From a virus, in the IMG/VR virus record IMGVR_UViG_3300021963_000348, positions 1 to 36,362 of that record: DNA of 36,362 nucleotides, one strand, 5' to 3'. The notes under the pieces are model-generated. The model was not told where the DNA came from. It did not search any database and saw nothing but the letters and a program-made list of their open reading frames with translations. The number at the start of each line of letters is the position of its first letter. Position 1 is the stretch's first letter. A program made the translations under genes and the position numbers. Below, piece after piece: positions 2,188 to 36,362 of the stretch.

Positions 2188-3027
2188 TTAAAATATATAT
2201 CTGATGGTATTTTCTTGAAAATACTGAGTGTATATAGTTTTAAATTTGTCAATGAGTTTGGATTTATAGGTCAATGGGTACCTCATTATTAGCTCACTAT
2301 TCTTGATTTCTGAGCTGTATTTCATAAGCTCTTGAGCTAATTCTGAAGATCTGGCCATTTGTCTAGAATGATTAGTAAGTGCAATAACTTCACACTTGTT
2401 CTCACCGGCCACTTCTCTGACCTCTTTAAAAAGATTATTGTAATGTTCCTCCCATCCTGGATAGAATATAACAGGACTGTAATTACAATGTACTTCCCAA
2501 CCCAAGGCTTTAATTCTATCTATGTCTCTGATTCTGCTTGATATACTTTGCATTTTAGGTTCCAGTATATCAGAATATATCTGAGGCATAAGGCTTACCC
2601 TAACTCTAGGTTTCTTATTGAAGTGATTTACATCTATCTTCAATAGACTAGGATACTTGGTAGCCATTGTAGTATTTAACCGTGGATGATTATCATATCT
2701 TTTTAAGTAATCTATCAGGGGTTCAGGTAAATGTTTCTGCATTAAGACTAAGTCTGTATTGCATGCTATATCTACCATAGTGTATATAGGGTCTTGTTGA
2801 TCTGGTACCTTAGTGTATTCCTTTTCCCATTCAACTACAGACTGAAATATGTCTTCAACATTTGTGTTTACAAAGACTCTCTCACCATTATATCTAGACA
2901 TATAGCAATAAGTGCTAACGCATCCACCAAAGCAACCGTATATTAGGTTAGGGGCAATGCAGTTAGCACTATTATTATTGTCTTTAGTTACAAGAGTCTT
3001 GGTCTTTTGAACCTTAATCACTTGCAA
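2188..3027 (-). CDS. Spore photoproduct lyase-like radical SAM protein
   Basis: 279 aa. Near the N-terminus NLIYGCFGGCVSTYCYMSR resembles the [4Fe-4S]/SAM-binding segment of SplB, followed by RVFVNTNVEDIF, like the SplB stretch after the cluster. Further on, PRVRVSLMPQIYSDILEP and VIFYPGWEEHYNNLF also match SplB blocks. SplB repairs UV-made spore photoproduct thymine dimers; a DNA-repair or base-modification role is plausible. Odd: the cysteines (C32, C36, C41) are spaced C-x3-C-x4-C rather than C-x3-C-x2-C. A stop lies just upstream, so the start must be TTG at 3027 or GTG at 3021; the first in-frame ATG would remove the cluster. It overlaps the preceding gene by about 14 bases. Confidence 0.7.
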   Translation of the reverse strand: MQVIKVQKTKTLVTKDNNNSANCIAPNLIYGCFGGCVSTYCYMSRYNGERVFVNTNVEDIFQSVVEWEKEYTKVPDQQDPIYTMVDIACNTDLVLMQKHLPEPLIDYLKRYDNHPRLNTTMATKYPSLLKIDVNHFNKKPRVRVSLMPQIYSDILEPKMQSISSRIRDIDRIKALGWEVHCNYSPVIFYPGWEEHYNNLFKEVREVAGENKCEVIALTNHSRQMARSSELAQELMKYSSEIKNSELIMRYPLTYKSKLIDKFKTIYTQYFQENTIRYIF

Positions 3028-26543: not shown

Positions 26544-26770
26544 TTGATAAATGTTTTAAAATGAATAAGAAGATCTCTTCCAGGCTCACCCTGGTTGTGG
26601 ATTTGATTGAACATAGTTTACTGTTCACCTGTTGTAAGTGCACTACAGAGCAGGGTCCATCACATTATACCTTGAGGCATTTAAAACTTATTGGGTAATT
26701 ACTCCCATAAGTCAAGGTTTCTTTCAACGGTGCTAATCTGTCTTATGTAAGAGATCTTTCTTACTCATAG
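26544..26770 (-). ncRNA. Candidate structured RNA 3' of tRNA-Leu
   Basis: No ORF of note. On the minus strand the segment is packed with exact pairings: CCTTGA...TCAAGG enclosing ACTTATGGG/CCCAATAAGT; CCAGGGTGAGCCTGG; GTAAGA/TCTTAC; GAACA/TGTTC. This is more than the adjacent coding DNA shows. It may be a stand-alone RNA or part of the tRNA-Leu transcript. Identity unknown. Confidence 0.4.
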
Positions 26771-26853
26771 TAGCCGGGATGGGACTTGAACCCACACGAG
26801 CAAATGCTCAAGAGATTTTAAGTCTCTCATGTCTACCTTTTCATCACCCAGCT
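26771..26853 (-). tRNA. tRNA-Leu (UAA)
   Basis: Acceptor AGCTGGG pairs with CCCGGCT; anticodon arm GAGACTTAAAATCTC with anticodon TAA; long variable arm TTGAGCATTTGCTCG; T arm GTGGG-TTCAAGT-CCCAT; discriminator A. No CCA is encoded. It reads UUA/UUG, frequent in AT-rich genes. Class II (Leu) by the long variable arm. Confidence 0.93.
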
Positions 26854-27021
26854 AGTGTGCTGTCTTTCCAGCAGTCATAGCTTTTCTTACAGCTAACCGT
26901 GTTCCCTTATCTCCAGAGACCAATAGCACCCGTTTATACTTTGGGTACACCAAGTGCTTGTCTTTCCAAGCTGTCACGATTTTACTAGTGTCAGACAATT
27001 GTTTTGCCTCTCATTACCTCA
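26854..27021 (-). ncRNA. Candidate structured RNA 5' of tRNA-Leu
   Basis: No coding frame of note between the zinc-ribbon gene and tRNA-Leu. On the minus strand ACTAGTG and CACTAGT close a 40-base loop starting at the stop codon of the preceding gene; two related hairpins follow, GCTTGGAAAGACAAGC and GCTGGAAAGACAGC, both with loop GAAAGA and similar flanks; between them TAGCT/AGCTA. It reads through directly into the tRNA. Confidence 0.45.
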
Positions 27022-27270: not shown

Positions 27271-27283
27271 ATTAATAATTTTG

Positions 27284-27357
27284 TGATCCCATCTGGACTT
27301 GAACCAGAAACCTACAGCTTAGAAGGCTGTTGCTCTATCCAATTGAGCTATAGGACC
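27284..27357 (-). tRNA. tRNA-Arg (UCU)
   Basis: Acceptor GGTCCTA pairs with TGGGATC; D arm GCTCAATTGGATAGAGC; anticodon arm with TCT in ACAGCCTTCTAAGCTGT; T arm TCTGG-TTCAAGT-CCAGA; discriminator A; no encoded CCA. Reads AGA/AGG, the main Arg codons of an AT-rich phage. Confidence 0.95.
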
Positions 27358-27656: not shown

Positions 27657-27926
27657 TTAATATCTTGATTGTGAATAACCTAATTCCTTTGCTTCCTCTG
27701 GATTTTTTTCTATCCAGTCATGACAATTTCTACATACTGAAAGCCAGGTAGAAGTATCCAAGTGATACTTCCCCCTACCTTTCATGTGGTGAATGTCCGT
27801 AGATCTAAGAGTACAGTTAAAGACTTTAGCTTGACACATGGGTAATTTGTCAAGATGAATTTTTCTCAACTTTGAATAATCAGAGTTGGTCTTTACCATT
27901 TTCTTAGATACTTTGTTTAGGGACAT
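27657..27926 (-). CDS. HNH endonuclease, 89 aa
   Basis: Motifs MCQAKVFNC, STDIHHMKGRG and LSVCRNCHDWIEKNP give the HNH signature (H-H, N, H) with a zinc-binding C-x4/5-C and C-x2-C frame. The small size is typical of phage HNH proteins linked to DNA packaging or recombination, without a DNA-targeting domain; a homing enzyme is less likely as there is no intron or split gene next to it. The start overlaps the end of the 177-aa gene by 23 bases. Confidence 0.82.
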   Translation of the reverse strand: MSLNKVSKKMVKTNSDYSKLRKIHLDKLPMCQAKVFNCTLRSTDIHHMKGRGKYHLDTSTWLSVCRNCHDWIEKNPEEAKELGYSQSRY

Positions 27927-28437
27927 TACCTTTGAGTGTTAAAAAGTTTTTTGGTAGCAAACCTTCAGACATAAATTTTAGTATTACATCTTCATAGGTT
28001 AAGCCTAGATCTTTTAAAGAAAGTGTATTCTTATATTCCGGAATGTACTCTTCTGCCGGGATATCAATAATTGCTCTGACATTTTCTCCAAATAGTTTAT
28101 AAAGATAATCATTTATTCTCCTGTTAGAAACAGTTTGTTTCCAAATGTTGAGAACATCTTGGCCTCTTTGCCATACTTTTTTGATTCTTCTTTTCTTGTC
28201 CCAATGGAGTTTAGCTTGTTCTTCCAGAGTATAAACATTTAAACCATGTAACACACGTTTAAATAAAAAGTGTTGATGAGGATTAAGCTTAGTGTAATCT
28301 AATTTCATCAAATCTTCTTTGGTGTGTAGTTGATACTCTTGAAGTAAGCCATAATAAGCATACCTTTCTTCTCTTAACTGTAAATAGTTAATGTCTTGCT
28401 GAGTTTTCAGCTGTTGAATTTGTTCTGGATTTAGCAT
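27904..28437 (-). CDS. Unknown phage protein, 177 aa
   Basis: Starts MLNPEQIQQLKTQQDINYLQ; helical, with a basic middle (AKLHWDKKRRIKKVWQRG) that may contact nucleic acid. No family recognised. It follows the terminator at 28465-28498 and overlaps the HNH gene, suggesting a shared function. Confidence 0.65.
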   Translation of the reverse strand: MLNPEQIQQLKTQQDINYLQLREERYAYYGLLQEYQLHTKEDLMKLDYTKLNPHQHFLFKRVLHGLNVYTLEEQAKLHWDKKRRIKKVWQRGQDVLNIWKQTVSNRRINDYLYKLFGENVRAIIDIPAEEYIPEYKNTLSLKDLGLTYEDVILKFMSEGLLPKNFLTLKGNVPKQSI

Positions 28438-28464
28438 AAGTTTGGTTTTAAGTGTGTGTCTATA

Positions 28465-28498
28465 AAGAAAAAAAGGGCAGCATTACTGCCACCCTTTT
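28465..28498 (-). terminator. Rho-independent terminator
   Basis: Minus strand AAAGGGTGGCAG / CTGCCCTTT stem with one bulge, loop TAATG, then TTTTTTTC. Lies 22 bases past the stop of the acidic-tail gene (28520-29110) and ends that unit. Confidence 0.8.
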
Positions 28499-28519
28499 AA
28501 TCAAATTGGTACTCTAAAA

Positions 28520-29110
28520 TTAAAGTTCAAATGTATCTTCTAGATCATCTACAATAACTTCTTCTACTGCATCATCAACTTCTTCAACGTCATTTGAATC
28601 ATCTTTCAAATCAAATGCTTCTTGAATAGTTGCTGTTGCTACTGCAGAAACTTTGTTGATATTAGAAGTAGCACCATTTGCACTACGGATTGCATCAACA
28701 TTGTTATGTTGTACAAACTCATCTTGTTCACTTGGATCAGCTGTATAATAAGTGATTCTATAAATAGGCTCACCATAGATACAACATACAATTCCTGTGT
28801 CACCAGCAATCTTTAAGTGCTGATCAGGATTTTCTTCACTGAATGGAGTGGTAGATTCTTTAACTACAATCTTACCTGGAAGTTCCATTCCCTTGGTAAA
28901 ACCAAACATTTTCAATTCTTCCATTTTACCTTTAAGAAGAGTTGTCATCTTTTGAGTTTTTAACCAACCTACATTCTTAAGATTAGCAGGATTAGATTGA
29001 ATCATTGTGCGTGATTGTTGTAAGACTACAAAACCATACTCAGGATTGTTTTTGCTTTGGCGGATAACCATACCGTTATCATCAGCCAATACTGTTACTG
29101 GGCTGTACAT
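28520..29110 (-). CDS. Acidic-tailed protein, possible ssDNA-binding, 196 aa
   Basis: A strand-rich body and a C-terminal tail of about 30 residues that is nearly all acidic (EEVDDAVEEVIVDDLEDTFE). The middle (TKGMELPGKIVVKESTTPFS then LKIAGDTG) resembles LNVGDEIPGFQLSNNP in the 112-aa protein at 34304. The acidic tail is of SSB type, so a second single-strand-binding or DNA-mimic protein is possible; no fold is certain. It heads its own unit ended by a strong terminator, which fits high expression. Confidence 0.55.
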   Translation of the reverse strand: MYSPVTVLADDNGMVIRQSKNNPEYGFVVLQQSRTMIQSNPANLKNVGWLKTQKMTTLLKGKMEELKMFGFTKGMELPGKIVVKESTTPFSEENPDQHLKIAGDTGIVCCIYGEPIYRITYYTADPSEQDEFVQHNNVDAIRSANGATSNINKVSAVATATIQEAFDLKDDSNDVEEVDDAVEEVIVDDLEDTFEL

Positions 29111-29136
29111 GTTTTTTAAAATTTTAAGTGAATTGA

Positions 29137-29421
29137 TTAAATGAAATCCCCTTCATCTTCGGGGAAATAGTATGGGTCAACCCTATTACTTAGAAGATCT
29201 ATATCATCTTCTGATAGAAAAACTTCTTCTTCTTCTTGACTTATATCTTCCAATGCTATTTCAACATTTTTAGAAGAGTACAGGTTGTAAAAGGGGTTAA
29301 CACAATCTTTAGTATAGGCAATACCTAATGAATTCAAATCTTGAATGTCTTGGTCAGTCATATCAAGATATTGTTCAACTGAGAGCTCAATTATACGTCC
29401 ATTAGGAAGCTGTAAAATCAT
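29137..29421 (-). CDS. Unknown acidic protein, 94 aa
   Basis: Starts MILQLPNGRIIELSVEQYLD; ends with two very acidic patches (EDISQEEEEVF, FPEDEGDFI). I do not recognise a named family. It has its own well-matched promoter at 29444-29474 and precedes the 196-aa acidic-tail gene, so it is likely an abundant early product. DNA mimicry is a guess from the charge only. Confidence 0.65.
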   Translation of the reverse strand: MILQLPNGRIIELSVEQYLDMTDQDIQDLNSLGIAYTKDCVNPFYNLYSSKNVEIALEDISQEEEEVFLSEDDIDLLSNRVDPYYFPEDEGDFI

Positions 29422-29443
29422 TTTGACTAATGATAAATTAGAT

Positions 29444-29474
29444 CAAATATATAATTTTACTAATTGAATTCAAG
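29444..29474 (-). promoter_or_regulatory. Bacteroidota-type promoter
   Basis: Minus strand CTTG (29471-29474), 19-base spacer, TATATTTG (29444-29451), full match to TAnnTTTG. Predicted leader of about 16 bases to the ATG at 29421. Best promoter of the leftward arm. Confidence 0.65.
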
Positions 29475-29527
29475 CTGTTACATTAAAATATTACATGAGA
29501 CTTGTAAAATAATTAGCATTAATATAG

Positions 29528-29779
29528 CTATCTCAATATTAATAATTTACCTTTTCTGGTTAAATAACCTTTAGTTTTTAGTTCTTTGATGTATGCAGAT
29601 ACTTGAGATACACTTTTATCACTTATATCCGCCAGTGTACTTAAAGACGGAAAGCATTCTCTTTGCTTGTTTGCATATGTACTAAGTATGGCATACAATC
29701 CTTTTGCTTGTAAACTAAGATCAGGGTCTGTCATTATATCTTTTGAAACTATACCAAAGCTATGGCTTTTTTTGAACAT
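29528..29779 (-). CDS. Replication-type helix-turn-helix protein (HTH_36), 83 aa
   Basis: I chose ATG at 29779 (MFKKSHSFGIVSKDIMTD); the longer frame would need TTG at 29791. The pattern LSLQAKGLYAILSTYANKQ, CFPSLSTLADISDKSVSQV and YIKELKTKGYLTRKGK is the HTH_36 winged helix of plasmid/phage replication initiators and regulators. Only the DNA-binding domain is present, so it is probably a regulator or initiator accessory. About 107 bases without a gene follow, including the promoter for the next unit. Confidence 0.78.
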   Translation of the reverse strand: MFKKSHSFGIVSKDIMTDPDLSLQAKGLYAILSTYANKQRECFPSLSTLADISDKSVSQVSAYIKELKTKGYLTRKGKLLILR

Positions 29780-29909
29780 ATTGTTCAGCAATTAAACTAA
29801 AGGCTTTGTTGAAGTCTTCTTCTGCAATTAGTTCCGGGTTATCCCAATTATACTTGGTAGACATCCATCTACCAAATGTGGGAATTAATACATCATTCAC
29901 TGATGTCAT
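29760..29909 (-). CDS. Small unknown protein, 49 aa
   Basis: Read from ATG at 29909 (MTSVNDVLIPTFGRWMSTKY); an upstream in-frame start would add 30 residues but overlap the preceding gene by over 100 bases. Ends AFSLIAEQYVQKKP. No family recognised. Overlaps the upstream gene by 17 bases and the HTH gene by 20. Confidence 0.5.
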   Translation of the reverse strand: MTSVNDVLIPTFGRWMSTKYNWDNPELIAEEDFNKAFSLIAEQYVQKKP

Positions 29910-30399
29910 CTTCTTCAAGGTCAGATACTCTTTCAAGTGCTCTGTCAATAACTCTGGGGATATATGTGCCATTGTAATGAGGGATTTGAGATTTTTCAAT
30001 TTTAATCATCTCAAATATACTCAAACTATGCTCATATGGTGTTTCTTCCCCATAAAAAAGATTACATTTCATGCTATGATGGTAACAATCATGTTCATTA
30101 TGCCAGTCATTACTCTTTATGACTTGGCCAAAAACATAACCATCTTCAATAAGTCCAAGATCAATAAGCCTATCTTCAAAGAAGTGTTTGCTCTTATGAC
30201 CATATGGGACTTTCACTTTGAAATAATCATTAGGCTCAAAAATGGATATCCTATCCTCTGTAAGCAGCATGTTGATTATACCATTTAGAACATCTGATGT
30301 AGAATTACTGACAATGAGATTGGCAATTTGATCTGATACAGGAGATTTAAGATGTCTTTGAATGAACTTTGCTATCACTGGTTTACTAATCTGTACCAT
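29893..30399 (-). CDS. Unknown phage protein, 168 aa
   Basis: Starts MVQISKPVIAKFIQRHLKSP; helical N-terminus, then a strand-rich, His/Asp-rich part (SNDWHNEHDCYHHSMKCN) that might bind metal, and an acidic end. No family recognised. Overlaps both neighbours. Confidence 0.6.
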   Translation of the reverse strand: MVQISKPVIAKFIQRHLKSPVSDQIANLIVSNSTSDVLNGIINMLLTEDRISIFEPNDYFKVKVPYGHKSKHFFEDRLIDLGLIEDGYVFGQVIKSNDWHNEHDCYHHSMKCNLFYGEETPYEHSLSIFEMIKIEKSQIPHYNGTYIPRVIDRALERVSDLEEDDISE

Positions 30400-30628
30400 T
30401 TAGTGTTTGTTTTAATAATTTCAACTTACGTTCAGCATTTTCTTTTGCTTCTTTGCTTATAGAGCTTGTTGTTAAGACAAAGCTTAAGTTCCATTCTTCT
30501 CTTGATAGCTCATTACGGGATAAACCCCTGAGCCATTGCATGTATTCTTGGTCTGTCATATAAAGATTTATGAATAGAGACGGGCTGGTTTCCCACTTAC
30601 GCCATAAGGACCCATCAGTATTCTCCAC
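30386..30628 (-). CDS. Unknown protein with GTG start, 80 aa
   Basis: A stop lies two codons before the GTG at 30628, so the frame opens there (ENTDGSLWRKWETSPSLF); the next possible start is ATG of MTDQEYMQWLRGL. C-terminal half is helical and basic (EAKENAERKLKLLKQTLNG). No family recognised. The first gene after the palindrome at 30692-30705. Confidence 0.5.
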   Translation of the reverse strand: MENTDGSLWRKWETSPSLFINLYMTDQEYMQWLRGLSRNELSREEWNLSFVLTTSSISKEAKENAERKLKLLKQTLNGTD

Positions 30629-30691
30629 TTACCAAACCATAGCTATATACTACTACTGTTATATAGTAATATATTCCTGGTACTGTTAGTA

Positions 30692-30705
30692 TCCGGTATA
30701 CCGGA
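30692..30705. promoter_or_regulatory. 14-bp perfect palindrome, operator-like
   Basis: TCCGGTATACCGGA is fully self-complementary and much more GC-rich than its surroundings. It stands in an 81-base gap between two leftward genes, 64 bases before the GTG start; the same gap contains an inverted repeat CTATATA/TATATAG at about 30640-30670. Likely a protein-binding site for a dimeric repressor. Confidence 0.5.
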
Positions 30706-30709
30706 AACT

Positions 30710-31306
30710 TCAGACATAGTTATTGATATTGATTAGCACAGATCCATCAATGGAAAAATCTAAATGTTCCTTGATAAGTACTTGTGAATCTTCATTTTTA
30801 ACTTGTCTGATAATACTTTTAATTTGCTCAGCATCCATCTTTTTAAAAGAATCCATGAATCTTTTATAAGGTTTCATTATCTCATGCTTTTGCTCAATCA
30901 TGTGATATGTACTTAAAAAAGCTAGACCTTCTCTTTTTGTATTGACAGATACCGTGTACTCATAAGGATTGTAAAAACTTATTGAGAACAAATAATCCTT
31001 ATCATATTCATACATCAGGATATGATCATACTTATATGCATAAGAACTATGTACATAAGTCTTACTAACCATTTGAAGTTTATTCATTAACCACTTTGGT
31101 GTCTTGTATGTTAATGTAAACTTTAGTTGTGTATGATTTTTGTCAATAAAATAAGACTGTGAGAGTGAATAATTAAAGAATTTTGTCCAAATACTTATAA
31201 TATTATTCTCACGATCTGCTGAAATATTACTTTCATTCATACACCGTGGTCCATAATTCTTTATCCTTACAAGTGTTGCTTGCTTATTCCCCTCTTTTAT
31301 CTTCAT
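30710..31306 (-). CDS. Unknown phage protein, 198 aa
   Basis: Starts MKIKEGNKQATLVRIKNYGP; Tyr-rich, strand-rich first part, and a helical, charged C-terminus (SFKKMDAEQIKSIIRQVKNE). No family recognised. Overlaps the membrane protein upstream by four bases. Confidence 0.6.
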   Translation of the reverse strand: MKIKEGNKQATLVRIKNYGPRCMNESNISADRENNIISIWTKFFNYSLSQSYFIDKNHTQLKFTLTYKTPKWLMNKLQMVSKTYVHSSYAYKYDHILMYEYDKDYLFSISFYNPYEYTVSVNTKREGLAFLSTYHMIEQKHEIMKPYKRFMDSFKKMDAEQIKSIIRQVKNEDSQVLIKEHLDFSIDGSVLININNYV

Positions 31307-31608
31307 TTCATACCAATTTCAATGTGAAAACAAAGAATTAGTAATTGAACTGAGGGATCAACACGATTATATGCACCAAAGAATCCAAATGCTGGTACAA
31401 TAGCACCTCTAAACTTTGGTTTAGGCATTCTAATCATCAATGCAACAATGGCTAACAACATAGCAACTAACAGGAATACTGCTAAACTTGGTGCAAACCA
31501 AATCTGTGCTTTAAATAGACTTACAATAAATGTACTGTAAAGTATGGGCAATGCTAATACTATGGCTGCTTTTGCTAAGAAGCCACAAAAAATTTTGTGT
31601 TTGTTCAT
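31303..31608 (-). CDS. Membrane protein with 2-3 transmembrane segments, 101 aa
   Basis: Hydrophobic segments AKAAIVLALPILYSTFIVSL (about 12-31) and SLAVFLLVAMLLAIVALMI (about 41-59), plus a less certain third near 85. A basic stretch RMPKPKFR follows the second, placing it in the cytoplasm. No family recognised; phage early membrane proteins often act in host takeover or exclusion. Confidence 0.65.
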   Translation of the reverse strand: MNKHKIFCGFLAKAAIVLALPILYSTFIVSLFKAQIWFAPSLAVFLLVAMLLAIVALMIRMPKPKFRGAIVPAFGFFGAYNRVDPSVQLLILCFHIEIGMK

Positions 31609-31609
31609 C

Positions 31610-31759
31610 TTATTCTAATTTAATGGGTTTTCTACCTGTTCCGTCATCAGCATAGATAACAGTGTTTTCATCTTTTCTAACAATTGCTACATTAAGAGAA
31701 GCGGTAATAAATTCTTTACCGCCTCTCATGTAGTAATAAACAAAAGTTTCTTCAATCAT
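31610..31759 (-). CDS. Small unknown protein, 49 aa
   Basis: Starts MIEETFVYYYMRGGKEFITA and ends DDGTGRKPIKLE. Strand-rich with a Gly-turn; no family recognised. It exactly fills the gap between two other genes and overlaps the upstream one by 8 bases, which supports it despite the size. Confidence 0.55.
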   Translation of the reverse strand: MIEETFVYYYMRGGKEFITASLNVAIVRKDENTVIYADDGTGRKPIKLE

Positions 31760-32030
31760 AACTTGTGCAATAGTTTAAGTAATCATCATCATCTCTATCC
31801 TGAATTTCAGCTGCATCATGCATAACTGCTAATTCAAGTAGTTCATCATTCTCTTGTAACTCATCTTGTATTTCTTCATTAGATGGAAATGATACATCTT
31901 TAGTAAATAATCTTAAAGGTACATCCTGTCCATCAAAGAACCAAGTATAAGTAGCATTTCTAAACAATGCTAGTCCTATCATGTTATCACATGACACGAA
32001 CATATCTGGTTTTAGGATTAGAACTTTCAT
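31752..32030 (-). CDS. Unknown acidic protein, 92 aa
   Basis: Starts MKVLILKPDMFVSCDNMIGL; strand-rich N-terminal half, very acidic C-terminal half (EEIQDELQENDELLEL, QDRDDDDYLNY). No family recognised. Overlaps the membrane protein upstream by four bases. Confidence 0.6.
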   Translation of the reverse strand: MKVLILKPDMFVSCDNMIGLALFRNATYTWFFDGQDVPLRLFTKDVSFPSNEEIQDELQENDELLELAVMHDAAEIQDRDDDDYLNYCTSYD

Positions 32031-32254
32031 AGTCTGTTTTTTGTGTTAAGACCTTCTTCTAATTCTGATTCTTCTTGCCACCAGATGGCAATTCCAATTA
32101 GTGCTACCATATAGGCAACTTGTGCAGCAATAGCCCATATGCTCCATTCAGAGATTGGGTGTGCAAATACACTTCCTAGGGTAATCATACCCTCCATGAA
32201 TAGACCAACTAACCATACTGTGGCTAGTTTAGTCATGAATTTAACTTTCTTCAT
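32027..32254 (-). CDS. Small membrane protein with two transmembrane segments, 75 aa
   Basis: Basic start (MKKVKFMTK), a hydrophobic segment LATVWLVGLFMEGMITLGSV, a short polar turn around PISEW, then SIWAIAAQVAYMVALIGIAI and an acidic/basic cytoplasmic tail. Helical-hairpin layout with both ends inside. No family recognised; holin-like in size but placed among early genes, so that is unlikely. Confidence 0.6.
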   Translation of the reverse strand: MKKVKFMTKLATVWLVGLFMEGMITLGSVFAHPISEWSIWAIAAQVAYMVALIGIAIWWQEESELEEGLNTKNRL

Positions 32255-32313
32255 CTTGATTTGGTTTTAAGTGGGGTTTGTTTTTGGTTTTTCTTGTATA
32301 CTTTTTTTTGTTT

Positions 32314-32478
32314 TTATACACGTTGGGCCGTGTTGCCATTCTGATTTCCTGAATTGTTAGTTCTATCTTTTTCATCTTCATAACATTGTTGGCAGATGTG
32401 AACTTCATCACAACTACAAGTTAATTCTGGGGATATGCTATAAAGCATAAACATATCCATTGCGTCTTCATACAGCAT
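32314..32478 (-). CDS. Small cysteine-rich protein, 54 aa
   Basis: Starts MLYEDAMDMFMLYSISPELT, then CSCDEVHICQQC, a tight C-x-C-x5-C-x2-C cluster fit for one zinc, and a polar tail (NNSGNQNGNTAQRV). No family recognised. The 59 bases that follow up to the next gene start are an A/C-rich leader with no other signal. Confidence 0.55.
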   Translation of the reverse strand: MLYEDAMDMFMLYSISPELTCSCDEVHICQQCYEDEKDRTNNSGNQNGNTAQRV

Positions 32479-32480
32479 AA

Positions 32481-32711
32481 TTATCCATTTAAGATTTCAA
32501 TTTCCTTTTTAACGAGTGCATCAGTAACTTCCTTCTGCATCTTACATGTGTATTCATAAAGCTCAACAAAGTAATAAACATCACATCCGGCTTCATCTAT
32601 GCACACTTGATTGATCTTGTCCATCACCGATTGTAATTCAGCTAGTCTCTTATCTTCACGATTCTTAATCATTTCAAGTGTCATAAAATTTAATTCATCT
32701 AATAGTTTCAT
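32481..32711 (-). CDS. Unknown helical protein, 76 aa
   Basis: Starts MKLLDELNFMTLEMIKNRED; one long helical protein of mixed charge, ending KKEIEILNG. No family recognised. It is the first gene after the 1.6-kb non-coding stretch; the leader contains GTACAGTATTAATT, similar to a motif in the gap before the DUF932-like gene. Confidence 0.6.
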   Translation of the reverse strand: MKLLDELNFMTLEMIKNREDKRLAELQSVMDKINQVCIDEAGCDVYYFVELYEYTCKMQKEVTDALVKKEIEILNG

Positions 32712-34303
32712 ATAAATAGATTTTAATTAATACTGTACCACTCTGTATTTACACGGGCTTGTGACCGTCATTGGCTACATTAGTACAAGGGCTGAGTGTT
32801 GACCCTTATGGCAATAGTTTTAGAATGTTTCCATCCTTTACACACACCAACATTACTGCAGGTATATTGCACGTTCACAGATTTAGATGTCTGCCATCAC
32901 TACCTTGAGAGTTATAGTTTCATTTTCACACCAACTTCCTTGCGGGATTCACAGGCTGCCACCTGTTAGATAGATACTACTCACTCTACTTACTATCTGT
33001 CTTGCGGACGTCAAGTCTGTACATATTTCAGTACAATAAGAACATTGTGTTCCCAAGGTCCAAGAAGGATTTTGCTTTGTCATATTAGTTATGGGATACA
33101 ACCCTAAGTTAATAAGAAAAGGATGGATGAAGGAAGTTCTCCTTGGTTGTATAACATGCTTGCTTTTGACAAGTTTAGTTACCAACTCCCTTCTACTTTC
33201 AGCGGCCAGGCTTACTCATTGATTACAATTACTCACGACACGGTATTTCTACCAGCATCTTCACTGTAAACTAATAACAGATCCCCAATTGGCGGTTGGT
33301 ACTACTGTTATCTAACCATACACTTATTACGCTTTCACGCTCAACACCATTTCCATCTGGTGTCTACAACTCTCTTACCCTGTAGGGCCATTCCAAGTTG
33401 CAGAAGTATGATTACCTTTCAGTGGCATGCTAATGCATGGCCTGTTCTTTCTTAAGGAACAGACTTTATTCCATCACTGGATTATCCTTTGGTCACGAAG
33501 GCTGACCTGTTGTTTCAGTAACCTGACGAGCAGGCTTAACGTACACACCATGAGTATTTCAACTCTGAGGGTAACAACTTGTATACTTATACAGAGATAC
33601 ATGCTAACCCATTACGTCTAATGGAGCATATACTCTGGATATACATTTAGGTATATCAGCCTATTGGTCTTGTAACTATACTGGACCAACCCACGCCAGC
33701 AGCTTACTGGATATTTGCCTGGTTAAAGGAAAGGCAACAATACTATTATCTGAAGTTATCATATGGACTATGATAAGTTATTTGGTCAGAGCCAGGGATG
33801 TACTTCTCAAAGGTTACATTAGGACCTTGCCAGTAAACCATCTTGCGGGTTATCTGACACCAAAGTCTTGCCATCCAAAGAGTGGGAAATACAAAGACCC
33901 GGTAACCTTTTCTCATATACTGAAGCTTAAGAAACAGTAGAGAGTAAGTATCCCTAGTAGTGATAGACTCATATGTATTATAAGTGGTCACTATGTATGT
34001 TTTTTTCTTGATCATAGCTATATCTATTATTATGGTGAGACAAGTGGAATGATAGGTTTGATTGTGGTAATATGCGGGGTATTTGGCCACCCACTCAAAC
34101 AGTAACACACAAACAAATAAAAAATAAAGCAGTTTTAACTGGTGCTTAGCAGGTAAGTGGTCCTCTTGTACAGATTCATCCGCTATCAACTGGTGAATGT
34201 GTATGCAAGGTGTGTGCAAGGTGGAACAAAGCATAGTTAACTTATCTGCAAGTAACTATGCTCAGTTCCTTCTGGGTTCAACTGGGTTTCCCCAGTTCCT
34301 GCT
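32712..34303 (-). ncRNA. Candidate large structured non-coding RNA region
   Basis: About 1.6 kb without a credible gene chain in a genome that otherwise leaves almost no gaps; GC is visibly higher than in flanking genes. Perfect helices recur every 30-60 bases: GCATAGTTA/TAACTATGC (34231-34261), TTGGTC/GACCAA (33664-33689), GATATAC/GTATATC (33638-33657), CTGTTC/GAACAG (33442-33462), ATACAACC/GGTTGTAT (33096-33152) enclosing AAGGA/TCCTT, GAACA/TGTTC (33040-33052). Four hairpins end in GAAA loops on the minus strand. Two tRNA genes sit in another structured segment about 5 kb away. This fits a giant phage ncRNA of the GOLLD/ROOL sort or a new class; I cannot identify the class. One possible CDS lies inside (33746-34015). 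Confidence 0.5.
33746..34015 (-). CDS. Doubtful small protein inside the structured region, 89 aa
   Basis: From ATG at 34015, MIKKKTYIVTTYNTYESITT and GYRVFVFPTLWMARL look more protein-like than other frames here. The frame is open further upstream to 34234, but that part is His/Cys-rich and unlike a protein, so I use the later start. Several strong helices (33756-33776; 33781-33863) lie inside the frame, so it may be spurious or overlap the RNA. Confidence 0.3.
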   Translation of the reverse strand: MIKKKTYIVTTYNTYESITTRDTYSLLFLKLQYMRKGYRVFVFPTLWMARLWCQITRKMVYWQGPNVTFEKYIPGSDQITYHSPYDNFR

Positions 34304-34642
34304 TTAGGCAGGTTCTACCCAGAAGAGGCCTTCTAGTGCCTCCCCAGTTTCACGGTTGACAACAGGATTGTTGCTCAATTGGAAACCTGGGATTTCATCC
34401 CCTACATTAAGTTTGCTTTGCAAGCCTTTAATGGTGGGATGATTGGCTTTCATTGACTCACCGGTCTTTGGATCGGTTAAGGCAAGGATGCCAAAGCTGA
34501 GATTCTGTTGGTTGCGTGCACCAACTTGGAATCCAGCAATCTCAGCCTTTGCCTGTGTCAAAGGTGCTGAGGAGACAATGATGACAGCACTCTGTGTGTC
34601 AGCATTGACTTTAATCTTACGGAAGAAAACTGATTTGCTCAT
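34304..34642 (-). CDS. Unknown phage protein, 112 aa, first leftward gene
   Basis: Starts MSKSVFFRKIKVNADTQSAV; a compact strand-rich domain with ARNQQNLSFGILALTDPKTG and DEIPGFQLSNNPVVNRETGE. It resembles, by pattern, the middle of the acidic-tail protein at 28520-29110, but without the tail. Codon and base use are more GC-rich than its leftward neighbours. It has its own promoter with a palindromic spacer, so is likely a strongly regulated early gene; perhaps a ssDNA-binding protein. Confidence 0.65.
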   Translation of the reverse strand: MSKSVFFRKIKVNADTQSAVIIVSSAPLTQAKAEIAGFQVGARNQQNLSFGILALTDPKTGESMKANHPTIKGLQSKLNVGDEIPGFQLSNNPVVNRETGEALEGLFWVEPA

Positions 34643-34663
34643 GGTAAATTATTTTTTTAGGAT

Positions 34664-34693
34664 TAAACTTATGGGGGCCACCCCCCTGTCAAA
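34664..34693 (-). promoter_or_regulatory. Leftward promoter with palindrome in its spacer
   Basis: Minus strand TTTG (34690-34693), 18-base spacer, TAAGTTTA (34664-34671). The spacer consists of GGGGGGTGGCCCCC, a GC palindrome that could be bound by a repressor or form a hairpin. Leader to the ATG at 34642 is about 15 bases. Confidence 0.55.
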
Positions 34694-34832
34694 ATTTAGC
34701 CGGGGAGCGGTTCCATAGCACCCCTCAAGAATGCAACACATAAATTGGTTGTAGGTACGGGGGGTATGTGCATCTCTGTAGAAAGATGGGGGGATGGTTG
34801 GACGGGGTTAAAAAATTTGGTATATTAGAAGT
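34694..34832. other. Divergent intergenic region with G-runs
   Basis: Separates the leftward and rightward arms and holds no gene. The plus strand has G6 at 34759-34764, G6 at 34788-34793 and G4 at 34804-34807, rare in this AT-rich genome. It may be a regulatory switch or replication origin; a G-quadruplex is possible. TTTGGTATATTAG directly before the ATG at 34833 resembles the downstream late promoter but is too close to the start to serve it. Confidence 0.4.
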
Positions 34833-35093
34833 ATGGAGAACCGTATAGAAGAGTACATTGATATTGATAGAGCTTACTATAGTTCCTATAGGATAGTGAC
34901 TAAGAAGATTACCTTTGAGGATCTATTAGATGAGGATAGTGATAAAGGTTATTCCACTCTTCTTATACATGATCCTGAGAAGGAGATCACCCCGGATGTT
35001 GTGAATGACCTTATAGATTATTTTGTGGGGCTGGAGGAATATGAACTCTGTGCTGAATTAAAAAATATCTTGGATAAAAAAATAATATCCTAA
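34833..35093 (+). CDS. Unknown acidic protein, 86 aa, first rightward gene
   Basis: Starts MENRIEEYIDIDRAYYSSYR; acidic, helical ending (LEEYELCAELKNILDKKIIS). The middle (EKEITPDVVNDLIDYFVGLE) may be a small helical domain. No family recognised. A T-rich stretch follows. Confidence 0.6.
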   Translation: MENRIEEYIDIDRAYYSSYRIVTKKITFEDLLDEDSDKGYSTLLIHDPEKEITPDVVNDLIDYFVGLEEYELCAELKNILDKKIIS

Positions 35094-35118
35094 ACCTTTT
35101 TTATTTAACTTTTTTTGG

Positions 35119-35139
35119 TATATTTGTTCTGAACAAATA
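35119..35139 (+). promoter_or_regulatory. Rightward promoter overlapped by a perfect inverted repeat
   Basis: TATATTTG at 35119-35126 matches TAnnTTTG, 26 bases before the ATG at 35153. The sequence TATTTGTTCTGAACAAATA (35121-35139) is a perfect 9-bp inverted repeat around one central base and covers the -7 element and the expected start of transcription: an operator-like site. Confidence 0.6.
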
Positions 35140-35152
35140 AAAACCAAAAATC

Positions 35153-35452
35153 ATGGAACAGAATTTTTCTGAACAAGAAGTCCAATTATCTAAAGAACAA
35201 TTGGCACAACGTAGAAAAGAAATCACTGAATTCTACAAGAGTAACATCCAGCATTTGAAAGTACAGAAGGAGTATGAGCAACTCTTAACTGACATTGAAG
35301 AGCTCAGAGCAAAAAGAATGCAGGCTCAGATGTTCCTTGCTCAAGCCTTTGCTGCTGGTAAAGATGAAGAGGTTGAGAAAGCTGAAGCAGATTTTAACAA
35401 AGCTATGGCTGACGTAGAAGAGACTGATGGTCCAACATTAAAACCTATTTAA
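35153..35452 (+). CDS. Coiled-coil protein, 99 aa
   Basis: Long charged helices with Q/E/K/A heptad-like composition (KEQLAQRRKEITEFYKSNIQ, ELRAKRMQAQMFLAQAFAAG), so a coiled coil is very likely. No cysteine, no signal peptide. It is followed by the amidase after one base and could be a virion or scaffold-type component; no family recognised. Confidence 0.7.
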   Translation: MEQNFSEQEVQLSKEQLAQRRKEITEFYKSNIQHLKVQKEYEQLLTDIEELRAKRMQAQMFLAQAFAAGKDEEVEKAEADFNKAMADVEETDGPTLKPI

Positions 35453-35453
35453 C

Positions 35454-36362
35454 ATGAGAATGCTAAAGAAAGGAGATACTGGTGAAGACGTAAGAAAGCT
35501 TCAGCAGATTCTTGGTCTTAAGGCAGACGGAAGCTTTGGAGACAAAACACGTGCAGCCGTAATCAGATACCAGATGCATCATGAGCTTACTCCTGATGGC
35601 GTTGTTGGTAATGAGACATGGACGTTGTTATTATCTAAAGGAGGTTTTACAGAAGCCATTGATCAAGATACAGATTTGAGTAGTCAGTATTATACCACTA
35701 AGTATAATCAGACAATCCACAAGTACTTCTTACCTACAGATGAGTATGTGCATGAGAAGCTTGACAATGAGTATATCATGCTGCATCATACAGCCGGAGG
35801 AGCTAATCCTTATGCTTGTGTGGATATGTGGGGTAAAGATACAAGAGGTAGGATTGCTACTGAGTTTGTATTAGGTGGTCAAGATCACGCAACCGGAAAG
35901 TCTAAGCATGATGGTGTCATGGTACAGGCTTTTCCTCAAGGTAATCTTGGCTGGCACATTGGTGATTCAGGTTCTGGGTACATGAACCGTAGAACCGTGG
36001 GCTTAGAGATTTGCTCAATGGGTCATCTTAACAAGGATATGAAAACGTATGTGAATAGCAAAGTGGTTGATAGTCAAGTGATTACACTTGATGAAGCATT
36101 CAGAGGAGCTATCCACTGGCATAAATATTCTGACAAGCAGATTGAAGAGGTGGAAAAATGGTTGAGATTCATTGGAGAAAGAGATGGTGTAGATCTAAGA
36201 GTAGGTCTGCAACAGTGGATCAAAAAGCAAGGTGCCACTAAAGCATTTGATTTTCAGGAGGATGCCTATTACGGAAAAGTAAAAGGTTTATTATCTCATA
36301 CTAATGTCAGACGTGATAAGATGGATGTTTATCCTGATCCAAGACTGATTGATGTTATCATG
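35454..36362 (+). CDS. N-acetylmuramoyl-L-alanine amidase with peptidoglycan-binding domain (partial)
   Basis: 303 codons present; it runs off the right edge. Residues 1-60 (MLKKGDTGEDVRKLQQILGL, DGVVGNETWTLL) are a PG_binding_1 domain. From about 100 an Amidase_2 domain follows with zinc ligands in MLHHTAGGAN, GWHIGDSGSG and a later His/Asp pair near SHTNVRRDKMD. It cuts the bond between muramic acid and L-Ala in the cell wall. N-terminal binding domain is the reverse of the common order. No signal peptide, so it would act as an endolysin with a holin or be part of the virion. Start one base after the previous stop. Confidence 0.88.
   Translation, partial: MRMLKKGDTGEDVRKLQQILGLKADGSFGDKTRAAVIRYQMHHELTPDGVVGNETWTLLLSKGGFTEAIDQDTDLSSQYYTTKYNQTIHKYFLPTDEYVHEKLDNEYIMLHHTAGGANPYACVDMWGKDTRGRIATEFVLGGQDHATGKSKHDGVMVQAFPQGNLGWHIGDSGSGYMNRRTVGLEICSMGHLNKDMKTYVNSKVVDSQVITLDEAFRGAIHWHKYSDKQIEEVEKWLRFIGERDGVDLRVGLQQWIKKQGATKAFDFQEDAYYGKVKGLLSHTNVRRDKMDVYPDPRLIDVIM

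Follow-up and report, generated by a model that had tools for sequence, protein, structure and literature searches.

The window analysed here is the whole 36,362-base IMG/VR contig IMGVR_UViG_3300021963_000348, of which we studied the 1592 nt from 32712 to 34303. According to the ORF list, genes run leftward on the minus strand from 34642, and rightward genes begin at 34833. The window is identical to a 117,753-base viral contig (L039/L111) across the stretches compared, 27735-33872 and 29307-36362. The best named relatives of the terminase of this larger contig are those of crAss-like and Flavobacterium phages, at ~27% identity; portal and major head proteins are also encoded there, and a polymerase, a primase and helicases were found among the phage genes. 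Judging from these genes, the source is a Bacteroidota phage with crAss-like relatives, which we leave unassigned at the family level. A DNA search against named phages returned only short matches. Elsewhere in the window a freshwater-1 RNA (RF02979; 26602-26664, minus strand, score above the cut-off) adjoins tRNA-Leu(TAA) at 26770-26853, with tRNA-Arg(TCT) further away at 27283-27357; sequence at ~26860-27020 is unannotated.

Just upstream of the region lies a 112-aa gene (34304-34642, minus strand), which served as the query for finding relatives; it is 84-100% identical in eight contigs and has no PHROGs match. An intergenic stretch with strong hairpins follows it (34016-34303, minus strand; folding z of -4.27 for 34100-34299), the first ~60 nt of which are also kept in two relatives that lack the giant RNA described below (L117 and L118). 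The preliminary description had taken the entire interval for a gene-free tract of hairpins with raised GC, possibly a single leftward phage RNA of the GOLLD or ROOL type. The GC content is indeed raised, at 37-43% versus ~33% elsewhere. Alignment with four relatives (L112-L115) nevertheless subdivides the interval, and it is not free of genes, since 34015-33746 on the minus strand encodes a conserved 89-aa protein (MIKKKTYIVTTYNTYES...) with no assigned function. The same frame is present without gaps in two relatives (L113 and L114), and changes fall at third codon positions in 25 cases, first in 12 and second in 10. A long-range helix that had been reported at 33781-33863 is located within this gene. 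We rejected a longer ORF of 162 aa (33746-34234), because indels in relatives disrupt the frame upstream and only the 89-aa part is real. Next comes a hairpin-rich stretch of 154 nt (33592-33745, minus strand; z of -3.43 for 33500-33699), conserved in L112-L114 and replaced in L115. At the far end of the region, a 76-aa gene (32481-32711, minus strand) that is also present in a 98%-identical relative (L105) lies directly downstream of a twister ribozyme candidate.

GOLLD is a very large RNA with no assigned function that forms cages in vitro. When the window was compared with Rfam by cmscan with E-values, RF02032 (GOLLD) matched 33193-32789 on the minus strand with all of its model positions, 1-416, covered (88.8 bits, E of 3.4e-23); ROOL, OLE and introns had no Rfam match in the window. 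The score is below the gathering cut-off of 150 bits, which is a curation threshold rather than a biological feature. A default Rfam scan of the window missed both GOLLD and the twister, and it misses GOLLD because the scored members of this clade all fall below 150 bits. Searching by pattern for the terminal 3' sequence gave 21 stretches. The clade relatives that were scored with RF02032 give 81-134 bits and E-values down to 4e-35, the best being L243 at 133.7; standard GOLLDs, which were found by another pattern, give 219-322 bits.

Covariation strongly supports the structure of this RNA. Across 16 aligned clade members, 46 of the 62 pairs predicted for the conserved 3' domain (32789-33193, minus strand) changed on both sides with pairing kept. 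Paired cells made up 96.2%, against 73.4% when shuffled and 35-47% when slid, with none of 500 shuffles reaching the observed value, and the covariation score reached 0.703, compared with 0.242 after shuffling and no more than 0.149 after sliding. In the 5' domain (33194-33591, minus strand, ~398 nt), 63 of 101 predicted pairs were compensated in at least one of ten sequences. A nested helix previously proposed at 33096-33152 is absent from the covarying structure and sits in a variable linker. Excess stability over shuffled sequence was not general: only three of eight 200-nt minus-strand windows (33300-33499, 33500-33699 and 34100-34299) had z below -3, and the others ranged from -0.8 to +0.6. 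With only three such windows, folding energy by itself says little about structured RNA here. The ordinary z-scores in many windows and the 89-aa gene are what one would expect if the interval consisted largely of coding sequence or were a chance spacer rich in hairpins. We give that reading next to no chance, as the GOLLD match is full length, both domains covary, and for 33591-32789 the covariation refutes it.

The 5' bound of the RNA was placed where homology in relatives starts. For six of them (L107, L240, L241, L249, L253 and L115) alignment becomes possible at ATAAGTAyACA (~33591), and ten relatives in all align over the 5' domain from that point on; the homology of L107 to the window spans 32787-33591, and that of L115 resumes at ~33591 after unrelated sequence. 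As the relatives' homology starts there, the total length comes to ~803 nt, and we identify 33591-32789 on the minus strand as a diverged copy of GOLLD with its two-domain structure. The end-to-end RF02032 match and the strong covariation therefore bear out the expectation of a giant leftward phage RNA, in the form of GOLLD, although the 1.6 kb suggested for it was too long: ~803 of the 1592 nt, or ~0.8 kb, belong to GOLLD, and the interval is not one RNA. The solved env-38 GOLLD has 833 nt and was seen by cryo-EM to form a 14-mer cage (PMC12286853).

Several further observations concern GOLLD in other phages. Upstream of 33463 hardly anything separates L113 from L114, but downstream (33463-32789, relative to the window) L113 carries a diverged allele; the GOLLD body is thus a mosaic that recombines among relatives. 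Prevotella phage Lak-A1 (MK250015; L119:3001-3290) has a GOLLD-like 3' domain, 71-81% identical in pieces and ending in ...CTCAGCC, for which there is no Rfam match even at an E of 0.1; a diverged GOLLD is probably present in Lak megaphages. A phage-encoded tmRNA lies within ~2-4 kb of GOLLD in L087, L103, L110 and L251.

Directly past the end of the GOLLD model (32789) begins, in the same orientation and ahead of the next gene, a predicted type-P1 twister ribozyme (32735-32786, minus strand), which matches the full RF03160 model at 56.8 bits (E of 1.4e-11). This is below the RF03160 gathering cut-off of 67.2 bits, again a curation cut-off, and the optional P3 is absent. The P1, P2 and P4 stems are essential to twister and P0, P3 and P5 are optional (PMC5408937); all of the required stems are present, as GUAC/GUAC (P1), UGUA/UACA (P2) and ACG/CGU (P4), together with UAA, the L2 GC, L4 GUCACAAGCC, UAAA and the L1 GAGUG. 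Twister T1 consists of three Watson-Crick pairs and T2 is made through the conserved GC in L2 (PMC5408937). The window copy can form T1 with three Watson-Crick pairs between CAC in L4 and GUG in L1, and across 61 twister loci on viral contigs the middle pair of T1 is always Watson-Crick (A:T 46, T:A 6, C:G 5 and G:C 4). The catalytic and pseudoknot positions of the window copy are all intact. Because twister cleaves at the U-A next to P1 (PMC5408937), cleavage is predicted between U32782 and A32781 (minus strand; GUAC-U/AA). The preliminary description had not noticed this element. The succession of GOLLD and a canonical twister was seen in only one phage population and in no other viral contig searched. 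A search of 23 twister-bearing contigs for the GOLLD family found none, and therefore twister alone does not predict GOLLD. Among open-licence papers we found none joining GOLLD with a twister ribozyme, which does not prove the association novel, and the GOLLD structure paper (PMC12286853) does not mention twister.

The place that twister takes in the window is taken by other elements in relatives. L105/L112 is 98.8% identical to the window over GOLLD; the identity breaks off within the twister and picks up again behind it, and the twister core is replaced by ~140 nt within the same GUAC/GUAC stem (P1). The replacement, which we call twister-like RNA (L105:6308-6456, plus strand), also follows GOLLD in L243, L253, L257 and L274. 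Pistol ribozymes scoring above the Rfam cut-off lie 6 nt past GOLLD in L241 and L255 and 167-280 nt past it in L257, L240 and L249; they count as about three cases, since L241/L255 and L240/L249 are close relatives, and they are the only pistols in the 137 kb searched. In L244 and L245 a tRNA lies within 10 nt of the GOLLD end (...CTCAGCC). Standard GOLLDs have a tRNA ~18 nt after their end (the L087 group) or an intrinsic terminator-like hairpin (L092, L096 and L097). Eight clade members (L107, L242, L246, L250, L251, L252, L254 and L256) have no recognised 3' processing module. Two loci that matched a GOLLD-plus-pistol pattern, L305 and L306, have no GOLLD sequence around them and were rejected.

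We think it likely, on this comparison, that GOLLD obtains its 3' end from exchangeable self-cleaving ribozymes or from tRNA processing, and that the twister frees the GOLLD of the window. An alternative is that the twister serves the downstream 76-aa gene, by making the 5' end of its mRNA or tuning its expression, and that GOLLD is adjacent by chance or through shared intergenic space. Twister and twister-like RNAs do occur between genes without GOLLD nearby, and twister-like or related elements precede small genes in the GOLLD-less L116 and L118. Yet in several loci a ribozyme or ribozyme-like element starts within ~15 nt of the GOLLD end while the downstream sequences differ, and the same place is occupied by elements of three types, namely twister or twister-like RNA, pistol and tRNA, which makes this alternative unlikely in our judgement. 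It could also be argued that GOLLD works inside a long operon transcript and that the ribozyme-like sequence has little or no activity in the cell. Two points in favour are that the window scores fall short of the Rfam cut-offs (88.8 of 150 bits for GOLLD and 56.8 of 67.2 for twister) and that some clade members are without a module. Both also count against ribozyme maturation in general, as does the fact that GOLLD was seen with a canonical twister in only one phage population. Given that every catalytic and pseudoknot position of the twister is intact, and that relatives often have other processing-type elements at this spot, we regard an inactive ribozyme as very improbable and favour release of GOLLD by cleavage at its 3' end.

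The twister-like RNA that replaces twister in L105 proved to be widespread. A pattern scan found its 3' arm in at least 120 viral stretches, and 80 distinct cores come from L077-L303. The consensus is P1-UAA-UGCA-CC-AUN-P4-UUCNCAAGG-P4'-C-P5(AGUUGUAAU...AUUACAACU)-GAG-UGCA-GAGNG-P1'. The arms of P4 vary together. P1 in the twister register has at least 4 bp in 29 of 73 copies, against 7.3 expected from shuffled partners, and shifted registers show no such excess. The middle pair of T1 is C:G in 73 and A:T in seven of the 80 distinct cores, with no exceptions, and in a scan without a fixed 3' arm all eight UUCACAAGG copies whose 3' arm was found carry GAGUG, some of them being near-identical. 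The T1 pseudoknot, which is central to the twister fold, is therefore supported. P2, most of P5, T2 and the outer T1 pairs are nearly invariant, and covariation neither supports nor contradicts them. The T2 partners are CC:GG (with the GG in L4) where twister has GC:GC, and UAAA is replaced by GAG; Rfam twister models found no match in two copies at E-values up to 10. We therefore label the RNA twister-like and not twister, as it departs from the T2 GC and UAAA features and is not matched by the Rfam models. By its structure and its exchange with known ribozymes it is probably a ribozyme, and apparently of an undescribed twister type. The copy in L105 had no blastn match in named phages. Only one contig among 84,980 cellular genomes (L342) combines the 5' arm with a P4, a P5 and a loop of identical sequence, which marks the RNA, as judged from its distribution, as essentially a phage RNA. 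Somewhat less confidently than for GOLLD maturation as such, we favour the combined view that exchangeable 3' self-cleaving ribozymes mature GOLLD and that one of them represents this undescribed, widespread phage family, with its CC:GG T2 and a variable insert of ~5-235 nt in the P5 stem.

Trimming of tRNAs is not supported as a role for most twister-like copies, as none of 85 copies had a tRNA within 300 nt according to ARAGORN. One candidate, L283 (UUCUCAAGG), lacks GAGNG and looks degenerate, and it was not counted for or against T1. Related elements in L118 (5590-5720 and 6110-6270), L130 and L174 keep the P5 stem and GAGGG and sit just before small genes. They look unable to act as twister, because UAA is missing and GAGGG can form an unbroken helix with CYCUUU or CCCUUU located upstream of it. 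In L200 a hammerhead-like core (CTGATGAGTCC...GGACGAAAC) lies directly behind a copy of the twister-like 3' arm, after 2713-2730 (plus strand), and in the GOLLD-less relative L116 (6230-6430) AT-rich palindromic repeats (ATATCATATTTGATATACC...) lie just downstream of twister-like copies.

We suggest the following route for the GOLLD of the window. A single leftward operon RNA would carry the 112-aa and 89-aa genes, then GOLLD with the twister, and then the next genes. The twister would fold once its own 3' strand is made and would cut between 32782 and 32781 co-transcriptionally, leaving a GOLLD 3' end 7 nt past the last model position, with a 2',3'-cyclic phosphate, and a downstream mRNA with a 5'-OH. 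Freed monomers might then assemble, by likeness to the 14-mer cage of the solved GOLLD. In relatives the 3' cut would be supplied by the pistol ribozyme, by the twister-like RNA, which is not in Rfam, or by tRNA processing. We found no equivalent 5'-processing element for GOLLD, which speaks against this route. To our knowledge, the origin of a free GOLLD monomer with defined ends from a phage operon was not previously known, and a ribozyme at the exact GOLLD 3' end offers a concrete maturation route that is testable by a one-base mutation. That twister, pistol, twister-like RNA and tRNA replace one another at a single junction suggests that cutting there, and not a particular ribozyme, is under selection. 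It also suggests a plausible job for phage ribozymes, whose roles are mostly unclear, and it revealed a family of candidate ribozymes that escapes standard models.

Among known systems, the giant phage RNA ROOL likewise occurs near tRNAs and forms a cage, but it has no Rfam match in the window. The pistol ribozyme (RF02679) follows GOLLD in relatives and is absent from the window, and thus represents a different class at the same place. Phage theta ribozymes have been proposed to trim tRNA 3' ends (PMC10879173), a precedent for a ribozyme at the 3' end of GOLLD. These HDV-like theta ribozymes of gut phages resemble the present case in that a non-coding RNA of a phage has a self-cleaving ribozyme at its 3' end, and differ from it in their ribozyme fold and in their cargo, which is tRNA and not GOLLD (PMC10879173). 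Compared with type-P1 twister (RF03160), the window copy has P1, P2, P4, L1, L4, T1 and T2, but it is without P3 and sits precisely where another structured RNA has its 3' end. The GOLLD of the window agrees with the described family (RF02032; Weinberg 2009; PMC12286853) in its 416 of 416 model positions, its two domains, its length of ~800 nt, the variable linker in its 3' domain and its carriage by a phage that has tRNAs as well. It differs in belonging to a diverged clade (81-134 bits), in its occurrence in a phage with crAss-like relatives, and in having a 3' end that abuts a predicted self-cleaving ribozyme.
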